Positions 3,236-62,162 of a stretch of DNA of 64,000 bases are shown here, one piece after another. The stretch is from Halorubrum hochsteinianum (lineage in GTDB: Archaea > Halobacteriota > Halobacteria > Halobacteriales > Haloferacaceae): NCBI RefSeq assembly GCF_023702125.1, contig NZ_CP098415.1:620001-684000 (forward strand), in the 5' to 3' direction. Every line of letters starts with the position of its first letter. Position 1 is the stretch's first letter. The notes under the pieces were generated by a model. The model was not told the DNA's origin, did not search any database, and was given only the letters and a program-made list of their open reading frames with translations. The position numbers and the translations under genes are program-made.

Positions 3236-3593
3236 GCGGTGGCGCGTGCCGGCGAGCGTGCCGCCGAAGGCGGCCGCGAGTCGCACGCGCGAGGTCGTCG
3301 GGCTCCGCCCGACTGCCAGAGGGACCGGAGGTCCCTCGCTGGAGTCAGTCGCCGGAGCGAAGCGGAGGCGGCTGACGAGGCTGGGGAGGCGTGAGGTGCG
3401 GTGCGGTCGCGGGGCGGGACTCGAAGGGGCAGTCGGGAGGCGGGCACAGACGACGCAAGCACCGCAACGAGGGAGCAAAGCGACCGAGTGAGGAGCGCAG
3501 CGAGTGTGTGCCCGCCTCCCGGCTGGGGCTTCGGCGGTCTCGGCCACACCGTCACCTTCGCAGTAACGAGCAGTCGACTTTCCGACCGCGTTC
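3236..3593 (+). repeat. Dispersed structured intergenic element, copy A
   Basis: One of five related elements in the window, canonical orientation. In order: an outer pair GCGCGTGC/GCACGCGC enclosing an inner hairpin GCCGCC-GAA-GGCGGC; a variable hairpin region containing GTCGGGC-TCC-GCCCGAC; the conserved core GGCTGGGGAGG followed by GGGACTCGAAGGGGCAG; a long stem with 19-base arms at 3430-3448 and 3507-3525 (one G.T pair); the tail CTGGGGCTTCGGCGG; and a degenerate second tail ending near 3593. It lies between the 3' end of the gene at 3618 and the start of purL. It fills the 480-base gap between genes; no gene is supported here. Confidence 0.85.
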
Positions 3594-14088: not shown

Positions 14089-14473
14089 GCGGTGGCGCGT
14101 GCCTGCGAGCGGTCGCCGCAGGCGACCGTGAGACAGCACGCGCGAGGGACGCGGTGAGCGCTCGGAGAGCGCGAACCGCGAGGCTGGGGAGGCGTGAGGC
14201 GCGGTTGCTGTGCGGGGCGGGACTCGAAGGGGCAGCCGCGAGGTGGTCACAGGCGACGCAAGGACCGCAGAGAGCGAACGGAGTGAGCGACTGAGGACCG
14301 TGGTTCGAGAGATCGAAGCTCTCTCGTCATCACGAGACGCCTTCGGCGTCTCGAACGACAGCGAGCGTGCGACCACCTCGCGGCTGGGGCTTCGGCTGTC
14401 TCTGTGTCGATCAGCGAGGTGCGACCGGAAACATCATCGTACAGCCGAGCGGCCGGGACTTCGGCGGTGTTCG
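14089..14473 (+). repeat. Dispersed structured intergenic element, copy B
   Basis: Canonical orientation, between convergent mtnP and the glycosyltransferase gene. The outer pair GCGCGTGC/GCACGCGC holds inner hairpin CGGTCGCC-GCA-GGCGACCG. The second hairpin is closed by CGCGGT/ACCGCG. The core GGCTGGGGAGG and GGGACTCGAAGGGGCAG follow. The long stem has 16 perfect pairs (14233-14248 with 14371-14386) whose sequence differs from copies A and E at several positions with both arms changed. A triloop hairpin (9-base arms, 14333-14341 and 14345-14353) is inserted inside. Tail motifs lie at about 14382-14400 and 14446-14473. No gene is supported in 14076-14519. Confidence 0.85.
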
Positions 14474-24468: not shown

Positions 24469-24781
24469 CGAACAGGACCGCGGAAGCCCCAGACGCTCGC
24501 TACGACGAAATCCACGTTGTGACCGACACCGCCGAAGCCCCAGCCGGGAGGACTCGATGCGCTCGCTGCGGTCCTCAGTCGCTCGTTTCACTCGCTCCTT
24601 GCGGTCCTTGCGTCTCGCGTCTTCGTCCTCCCGGCTGCCCCTTCGAGTCCCGCCCCGCACAGCACCTCGCACCTCCCCAGCCTCGTCGCTGGCACCCTCC
24701 GCTTCGCTCCGGGGCCAGCGACTCCCTCGCGCGTGCTGCTCACGGTCGCCGCGGGCGACCGCTCGCAGGCACGCGCCGTCG
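24469..24781 (-). repeat. Dispersed structured intergenic element, copy C
   Basis: Inverted orientation, between divergent ncsA and the DUF4442 gene. Read on the minus strand it carries the same modules: outer pair GCGCGTGC/GCACGCGC with inner hairpin CGGTCGCC-CGC-GGCGACCG, a hairpin closed by GTCGCTGGC/GCCAGCGAC, the core GGCTGGGGAGG and GGGACTCGAAGGGGCAG, a long stem (plus coordinates 24541-24553 with 24625-24637, 13 perfect pairs) and tail CTGGGGCTTCGGCGG. A second tail lies at 24469-24499. It occupies most of the 546-base gap; nothing else is recognised there. Confidence 0.85.
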
Positions 24782-24873
24782 AGACCGCGTGGAGCGATGT
24801 AAGACACCGACAACCTGGGGCGCGTTGTCACCGGTTCCGACACCGGTTTGTCGCCGGCCCGCCGCGGATCGCC

Positions 24874-44599: not shown

Positions 44600-45010
44600 G
44601 CGGTGGCGCGCGCCTCCGAGCGGCCGCCGGGGGCGGCCGCGAGGAGCGCGTGCGAGGGACGCGGCGACCGAAGCGAAGCGAAGGGAGCCGCGAGGCTGGG
44701 GAGGTATGAGGTGCTGTGCGGAGCGGTGCGGGGCGGGGTTCGAAGGGGCAGTCGCAAGGCGGACGGAGGCGTTCACGAGAGCGAAGCTCTCGTGAGCCAA
44801 TCAGAACGCGAAGCGTTCTGATGACGACGCAAGCACCGCAGGAACGAGCGGAGCGAGTGACGAGGAGCGCAGCGAGCGTGCGCCCGCCTCGCGGCCGGGG
44901 CTTCAGCGGTCGTGTTCGGATCGGTGACTGCGTATCGCCGAGCGGCCGGGGCTTCGGCGGTCGTGTTCGGATCGGTGACTGCGTATCGCCGAGCGGCCGG
45001 GGCTTCGGTG
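44600..45010 (+). repeat. Dispersed structured intergenic element, copy D, with tandem tail
   Basis: Canonical orientation between convergent genes. The outer pair GCGCGCGC/GCGCGTGC uses a wobble pair. Inner hairpin GCGGCCGCC-GGG-GGCGGCCGC, second hairpin CGCGGC/GCCGCG, core GGCTGGGGAGG and TTCGAAGGGGCAG follow. The long stem (44749-44765 with 44881-44897) has a few mismatches, the weakest of the five. Two GAA-triloop hairpins are inserted (44773-44795, 44801-44821). The tail CGGGGCTTCGGCGG is tandemly repeated with 51-base period at 44891, 44942 and 44993. It fills the 472-base gap; no gene is supported. Confidence 0.85.
44891..45010. repeat. 51-bp tandem repeat at the tail of element D
   Basis: Two complete units (44891-44941, 44942-44992) differ by a single base and a partial third runs to about 45010. 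The unit comprises the element tail plus 30 bases of spacer. The near identity points to recent duplication. It is not a CRISPR: there are no unique spacers. Confidence 0.85.
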
Positions 45011-61784: not shown

Positions 61785-62121
61785 TGAACACCGCCGAAGC
61801 CCAGCCGCTCGGCCAGACGTATTCGCTAATAAATCGCTGACCGACACGAACGCCGCCGAAGCCCCAGTCGGGAGGCGGGCGCACGCTCGTTGCGGTCCTC
61901 AGTCGGTCGCTACCGCTCCCTCCTTGCGGTCCTTACATCGCCTGCGCCCGCCTCCCGACTGCCCCTTCGAGTCCACCCTGCTCCGCAACAGCCCCGCACC
62001 TCACGCCTCCCCAGCCTCGTCGGGCGCAGCCTTCGGACTCCCTTCGGTCGTCCTCGGTGCGCCCGACTCCCTCGCGCGTGCGGTTCGCGCCCTGGCGGGC
62101 GCTCACCGGCACGCGCCGCGG
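61785..62121 (-). repeat. Dispersed structured intergenic element, copy E
   Basis: Inverted orientation, between rfcS and the phosphodiesterase gene. On the minus strand: outer pair GCGCGTGC/GCACGCGC with inner hairpin GCGCCC-GCCA-GGGCGC; a hairpin closed by GTCGGGCGCA/TGCGCCCGAC; core GGCTGGGGAGG and GGACTCGAAGGGGCAG; a 19-base perfect long stem (plus coordinates 61865-61883 with 61943-61961); and the tail CTGGGGCTTCGGCGG. A second tail with GGGCTTCGGCGG lies at 61785-61812. It fills nearly all of the 433-base gap. Confidence 0.87.
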
Positions 62122-62162
62122 CAACGGGTAGTGTTTAAATCGCGGCGGCGGCGAGGGTCGGT

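Follow-up and report, generated by a model that had tools for sequence, protein, structure and literature searches.

An intergenic repeat in the window

The window, which is the whole 64,000-nt stretch of Halorubrum hochsteinianum DNA that was analyzed, contains five copies (A to E) of an intergenic repeat of ~250 nt (Table 1). From its 5′ end the element comprises GCGGT, a hairpin (P1) with a variable inner hairpin, the linker GAGGGA, a variable hairpin (P2), the core GAGGCTGGGGAGGYGTGAGG, a G-rich stretch, a third hairpin (P3), CTGGGGCTTCGG and a tail. P3 is built on a base of CGAAG paired with CTTCG that is followed by a 3 × 3 GGG/GGG internal loop, at least 11 variable pairs and an inner hairpin. 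GAGGGA, GAGGCTGGGGAGGYGTGAGG, GAAGGGGCAG and CTGGGGCTTC are near-invariant linkers. The ends of the element, GCGGTGGCGCG and CTTCGGCGGT, are not inverted repeats and P1 begins 6 nt from the 5′ end.

Table 1. Copies of the element in the window and component features of copy B.
Feature	Position in window	Strand	Details
Copy A	3236-3538	+	extra hairpins at P2 position
Copy B, whole element with tail	14089-14473	+	element 14089-14399, tail to 14473
Copy B, 5′ end GCGGT and P1	14089-14143	+	stem GCGCGTGC (14095-14102) / GCACGCGC (14136-14143)
Copy B, variable inner hairpin of P1	14110-14128	+	CGGTCGCC-GCA-GGCGACCG
Copy B, linker GAGGGA	14144-14149	+	invariant alignment columns
Copy B, P2 exchangeable hairpin CGCGGTGAGCGCTCGGAGAGCGCGAACCGCG	14150-14180	+	30-nt hairpin, identical in 8 sampled entries
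Copy B, core motif GAGGCTGGGGAGGCGTGAGG	14180-14199	+	near-invariant, common to distant genera
Copy B, P3	14223-14399	+	basal helix CGAAG/CTTCG; GGG/GGG loop; long stem 14233-14248 / 14371-14386; closed by CTGGGGCTTCGG
Copy B, nested hairpin unit GGTTCGAGAGATCGAAGCTCTCTCGTCATCACGAGACGCCTTCGGCGTCTCGAACGAC, ~58 bp	14302-14359	+	inside P3; ends GTTCGAGA (14303-14310) / TCTCGAAC (14349-14356)
Copy B, tail	14400-14473	+	3′ motif repeated (GCCGAGCGGCCGGGACTTCGGCGGT, 14444-14468)
Copy C	24529-24782	-	
Copy D	44600-44909	+	two extra hairpins within P3
Copy E	61853-62122	-	

The long stem of P3 pairs the arms CAGTCGGGAGGCGGGCACA and TGTGCCCGCCTCCCGGCTG in copy A (19 pairs, including one G.T), CAGCCGCGAGGTGGTC and GACCACCTCGCGGCTG in copy B (16 pairs, all perfect), CAGCCGGGAGGAC and GTCCTCCCGGCTG in copy C (13 pairs), and CAGTCGGGAGGCGGGCGCA and TGCGCCCGCCTCCCGACTG in copy E (19 pairs, all perfect). 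The stem is weaker in copy D than in the other copies. The first-pass annotation of the window had given these same lengths, and the paired changes that it named at arm positions 4, 7, and 12 and its three complementary inner hairpins are also present as described.

Certain unpaired features of P3 are strongly conserved. The GGG/GGG internal loop is kept in 145 of 152 copies, and tandem GA/GA mismatches in the inner hairpin recur in 149 of 182 copies across 45 sequence versions, including copy B (GCGAAC-GGA-GTGAGC). The inner hairpin loops are mostly GAA, GGA or GCA. In copy B the GGG/GGG loop (14229-14232 with 14386-14389) presents three successive G.G mismatches, which are near-invariant, as is the GGGG in the core (14183-14192 in copy B). 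Formation of a G-quadruplex is conceivable. The tails are arranged in tandem in other copies and the 3′ motif may recur in series: the motif is present approximately five times at 63-bp spacing after one element on the same chromosome (C1:452430-452764), and identical tail units recur in tandem in further copies (L013, L030, G048, and G006).

Copy B attains the best covariance-model score in the genome. The unit nested within its P3 possesses its own inverted ends and is inserted in the palindrome of another repeat. Most other copies lack the unit as alignments from the own-genome BLAST search skip the region. When plasmid records were searched with copy B, clear matches were confined to the nested unit (query 211-279). 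Sequences resembling the unit were noted on plasmids of Natronococcus, Natrinema, Halomicrobium, and other genera, in one case at a transposase gene. Outside the nested unit, plasmid records produced only weak partial matches in other genera, although PLSDB includes Halorubrum plasmids, and phage records did not match the element.

Copies are intergenic and confined to the main chromosome

A covariance model built from 32 copies, the E-values of which are rough, located at least ~126 reasonably complete copies among the 150 first-look candidates scored. All of these copies are on the 2.96-Mb chromosome, and the 101-kb second contig (C2) of the genome has none. With copy B as the BLAST query against its own genome, the best 40 of 206 candidate places were scored and comprised the 100% self match and 39 other main places of ≥160 bits. 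The element was detected in all 52 Halorubrum genomes searched (52/52), and class-wide the model matched a diverged form in 127 of 292 genomes and 38 of 77 genera. Copy numbers vary from at least 18 to at least 123 among species at the threshold used. The carriers of exact motifs, as judged from record titles, are mostly Halorubrum and also include Haloparvum, Halobellus, Halorussus, and Halosimplex. Distant relatives retain the core GGCTGGGGAGG, the linker GCGAGGGA and a P1 stem with different sequences. In five other multi-replicon Halorubrum genomes, of which secondary replicons constitute roughly 8-26%, each of the best 150 matches (150/150) fell on the main chromosome. Restriction to the chromosome is more in keeping with an old family that is inherited vertically than with an active transposon, and a chromosome-specific function is possible. 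Rfam yielded nothing above the cut-off at gathering and relaxed thresholds, and the element is not described in the literature searched on repeats of H. lacusprofundi and Haloquadratum. In one relative (G199) the elements often face each other as inverted pairs 350-400 bp apart (e.g., C1:2027338 + and 2027744 -). In one genus of another family the element lies downstream of seemingly the same gene in three species (L288, L291, and L293 in genomes G146, G070, and G132), apparently without P3.

None of the 126 copies overlaps a predicted gene, the gene calls being approximate predictions based on simple codon usage. The 5′ end of the element lies at a median of 41 nt past a stop codon or 102 nt from a start codon. 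In 83 of 124 cases it is the end of the downstream gene that faces the element (p = 0.0002). Convergent genes flank 31% of the copies, whereas 14% of the gene pairs in the window are convergent (p = 0.02). Where the neighboring genes are in tandem, the + strand of the element is antisense to them in 45 cases and sense in 24. An AT-rich patch with TATA-like words is present at -24 to -12 from GGCGCG in the 118 copies of this genome that were inspected, regardless of the orientation of the neighboring genes. The sequence TATTTATAA also is found upstream of the tail motif GAGCGRCTGGGG in several species.

Stem pairs covary and mismatches are retained

Covariation was assessed by a G-test with average-product correction, for which the null was obtained by shuffling Fitch-inferred substitutions on a FastTree tree. 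The procedure is our own coding of the R-scape principle and was applied to 152 distinct copies and 101 columns with 150 null sets. Among 4753 column pairs, the seven strongest were all predicted stem pairs. Three of these exceeded every null value, two had E-values of 0.05-0.07, and two had E-values of 0.16 and 0.85, all of which depend on a tree made unreliable by recombination. The P3 pair 21-6 was observed as CG (67), AT (34), GC (26), GT (12), and TA (4), the P3 pair 16-11 as CG (93), GC (32), and TA (11), and a P1 pair as TA (103) and CG (28). The significant covariation, the retention of the G.A mismatches amid varying flanking pairs, and the near-universal GGG/GGG loop support the view that the structure of the element is under selection.

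The first-pass annotation had read the paired changes between copies as selection for structure, a reading that an alignment of many copies devoid of supported covariation in the stems was to overturn. The covariation in the larger alignment, together with the kept tandem G.A and GGG/GGG loop, sustains that reading. However, independent compensation at single bases is not the main source of the differences between copies; whole hairpins are exchanged. Between-copy counts of compensatory changes therefore overstate the number of independent events.

The folded molecule is likelier DNA than RNA

The + strand of the element is predicted to be more stable than the - strand in 100 of 100 copies with both RNA and DNA parameters. 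The ratio of G.T to A.C pairs in P1 and P3 is 93:40, a fuller count which supersedes the values of 30:20 and 13:8 from limited subsets. Expressed as inferred events the ratio is 71:39 (p = 0.003), which denotes some wobble preference for the + strand. The helices of SRP RNA from 27 Halorubrum genomes, which served as a control, displayed 181:1 cells, and RNA selection of the SRP type would hardly tolerate as many A.C pairs as the element contains. In DNA, C(GNA)G triloops and tandem G.A pairs of the sheared type are very stable, and the DNA-aptamer literature includes the d(GCGAAGC) mini-hairpin; both G.A mismatches and GNA loops are also found in RNA. Thus, the wobble ratio and the retention of tandem G.A pairs and GNA triloops point to a fold that is DNA-like rather than RNA-like, and the selected form is likelier single-stranded DNA than RNA. 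Given the residual wobble preference for the + strand, the element may have a partial RNA role.

These data bear most directly on the alternative that the element is a family of structured non-coding RNA genes in which the + strand is transcribed, the RNA fold is the active form, and the copies have diversified in the manner of a multigene family. The significant covariation in the stems is a hallmark of such genes, and the near-invariance of single-stranded motifs across genera, the TATA-like patch that is independent of neighbor orientation, and the slight wobble preference for the + strand also favor the alternative, which nevertheless seems unlikely. The wobble pattern typical of RNA, in which G.U far outnumbers A.C, is not observed. 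Spacing from the TATA box to the transcription start in archaea is about 26 nt and, if applicable here, would position the start inside P1 and omit the 5′ strand of that stem. Moreover, the + strand more often is antisense in tandem contexts, Rfam provides no match, and P3 has been lost at some orthologous sites.

Hairpins are exchanged between copies

Identical P2 hairpins of 30-38 nt are found in copies with differing P1 and P3, including copies in other species, and the P2 hairpin of copy B is combined with different P1 and P3 modules in several species. The modules are unlinked: the mutual information between them is no greater than in permuted data. Hairpins are swapped between copies as whole modules and the variation is largely not stepwise.

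Many of the sites recur in other species. Among 66 copies from other Halorubrum, 28 occupy the site of a copy in the H. hochsteinianum genome with both flanks and the orientation in common. Two others are inverted, three join two H. hochsteinianum sites and mark breakpoints, 14 have one flank in common, and 19 have none. In 27 site-sharing comparisons, which represent 26 distinct loci, the ortholog never was the closest H. hochsteinianum copy and instead ranked 2-124 of 126. At the 26 common sites the divergence between the element and its ortholog is about that seen with a random copy, whereas the flanks are ~90% identical. The flanks at L084 are 96 and 94% identical, yet all of the hairpins between them are other versions. 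The element versions at the site of copy B differ between species as whole hairpins: G019 and G037 have lost P3, G047 carries a replacement of it, and in G009 the element is inverted. What is inherited is thus the site and the fold rather than the sequence. The closest pair of paralogs within the genome has 93% of the element in common and the median is 87%. At one closely studied site, about half of the genomes of the genus are without the element. No clean empty site was found; the sites in G001 and G013 were considered as empty sites that might define the target and were rejected as both retain remnants. In L086, L044, and L093 the flanks of one element map to two different H. hochsteinianum copies, in accord with rearrangement breakpoints, and L086 is consistent with an inversion whose ends are copy B at 14.1 kb (+) and copy C at 24.6 kb (-) of the window.

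Two candidate mobilizers were considered. A Y1/REP-type mobilizer was rejected because the Y1 transposase family (PF01797) had no matches in the genome, whereas control genomes were positive. TnpB elements were rejected as the parent because the flanks of the four TnpB-family genes in the genome are without the element motif save for a single partial match to the end of P1. Contig C2, from which the element is absent, carries three of these four genes.

The persistence of sites with changing content also would be expected of an active mobile element akin to the PATEs of Haloquadratum, if a single-stranded DNA transposase acting in trans excised the element and inserted it at preferred sites. 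Near-terminal palindromes, the lack of inverted ends and of a transposase of its own, unrelated element versions at orthologous sites, and inversion of the element at one orthologous site in G009 and two others agree with this scheme, and PATEs are themselves heterogeneous with 177-194 copies (PMC3119063). We consider the scheme unlikely as near-identical paralogs are absent, the genome is without a Y1 transposase gene, no copy lies on the second contig and none of the best 150 matches on the secondary replicons of the other genomes even though contig C2 harbors most of the TnpB genes, the flanks of which lack the element, and the unlinked modules are not predicted by replacement of whole elements.

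A proposed explanation

The explanation that we favor, with confidence that is evenly balanced, is that the element represents an ancient family of chromosome-bound, modular repeats interspersed in the genomes of Halobacteria, whose + strand folds as single-stranded DNA, whose hairpins are exchanged between fixed sites, and whose non-folding hairpins are removed by selection. The + strand, when single-stranded as at a replication fork or in a recombination intermediate, would fold into hairpins joined by the conserved linkers, while the copies would remain at fixed intergenic sites over long evolutionary times. The near-invariant linkers would supply homology for ectopic gene conversion or template switching, which would be the simplest route of exchange, and a whole hairpin would arrive in the recipient copy as one module. 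Hairpins that do not fold would be removed by selection that acts either on how the element spreads or on a protein that recognizes the fold. The family presumably originated as a non-autonomous mobile element, and DNA would be the selected molecule. In polyploid Haloferax volcanii, gene conversion between genome copies is reported to be efficient (PMC8223754, PMC11276520). Several points weigh against the proposal. The exchange tracts of single hairpins are short for RecA-type recombination, some of the site data could also have arisen if different copies inserted independently at hot sites, and neither a clean empty site nor an enzyme was found.

Two further alternatives fare less well. Palindromes might be driven neutrally by mutation, with templated correction of quasi-palindromes during replication and no selection on structure. 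The nearly perfect yet freely varying stems and the growth of hairpin arrays by insertion and tandem duplication are in keeping with this process, but it should also have perfected the G.A and GGG/GGG mismatches, which instead are kept while their neighbors vary, and the linkers are near-invariant across genera, such that the process is very improbable as an explanation. The least probable alternative, and one that we scarcely credit, is an element of chromosome organization or identity whose fold or G-rich motifs are bound by an architectural or replication protein and whose sites are kept for function: the confinement to the main chromosome, conserved sites, genus-wide presence, and conserved G tracts are as expected, but the spacing resembles random placement (CV 0.90 versus 0.99, p = 0.14), the strands show neither domains nor run structure along the chromosome, copy numbers vary widely among species, and many genomes of the genus lack the element at the closely studied site.

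An extension of the favored explanation, that of a repeat family folding as single-stranded DNA, is speculative and rather doubtful. Haloarchaea maintain high cytoplasmic K+. In what would be a new type of genetic element, fixed sites throughout Halorubrum might hold a single-stranded DNA fold in which hairpins are continually exchanged as cassettes between sites, and the fold, with its sheared G.A pairs, GNA triloops, and G-rich loop favored by K+, might be read by a dedicated chromosome-specific protein.

Significance and comparison with known repeats

A repeat in which location and fold persist while the sequence changes would be a natural record of selection on DNA structure. Such an element would also provide a direct means to ask how short hairpins swap between distant sites in a polyploid archaeon, and the hundreds of copies are a ready covariation data set with which selection at the DNA and RNA levels can be separated. 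All of the Halorubrum genomes searched carry the family, and its copies mark the breakpoints of rearrangements.

Among known systems, the REP, BIME, and REPIN sequences associated with RAYT transposases also comprise many extragenic palindromes, and the inverted pairs in relative G199 are reminiscent of them; REPs, however, are far shorter than the element and are linked to a transposase of the Y1 type (PMC2817692), of which this genome has none. The nested unit of copy B is comparable to the SMR-A small mobile repeats of Haloquadratum, which likewise are short and noncoding, have inverted ends, and lie inside palindromes of another repeat (PMC3119063). SMR-A is ~110 bp in length compared to ~58 bp for the nested unit, and the comparison concerns architecture.

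The BOX elements of Streptococcus pneumoniae are also modular, structured, noncoding, and in high copy on one chromosome (PMC3049150). Both families have a variable tandem number of one module, enrichment between convergent genes, and slow turnover of sites (PMC3049150), and modules of the element vary in number and combination as seen in unlinked exchange, the presence or absence of P3 at one site, and tandem tails. BOX elements have inverted IS-like ends and may overlap coding regions (PMC3049150), whereas the element has no such ends. Also unlike BOX, copies of the element exchange the hairpins themselves, and its family extends across an archaeal class. PATEs of Haloquadratum walsbyi are likewise haloarchaeal, with palindromes near their ends, many heterogeneous copies, and neither a transposase nor inverted ends (PMC3119063); the element shares this architecture, with near-terminal palindromes and no terminal inverted repeats or transposase gene. 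Both are targeted by smaller mobile repeats (PMC3119063). PATE palindromes resemble those of IS605-type transposons (PMC3119063), whereas no such link emerged here in a comparison that covered the TnpB genes of the H. hochsteinianum genome. Furthermore, PATE insertions are strain-specific (PMC3119063), whereas many sites of the element are common to species and the element is chromosome-bound. Overall, the element resembles both BOX and PATEs but fits neither, and works like a modular interspersed repeat.
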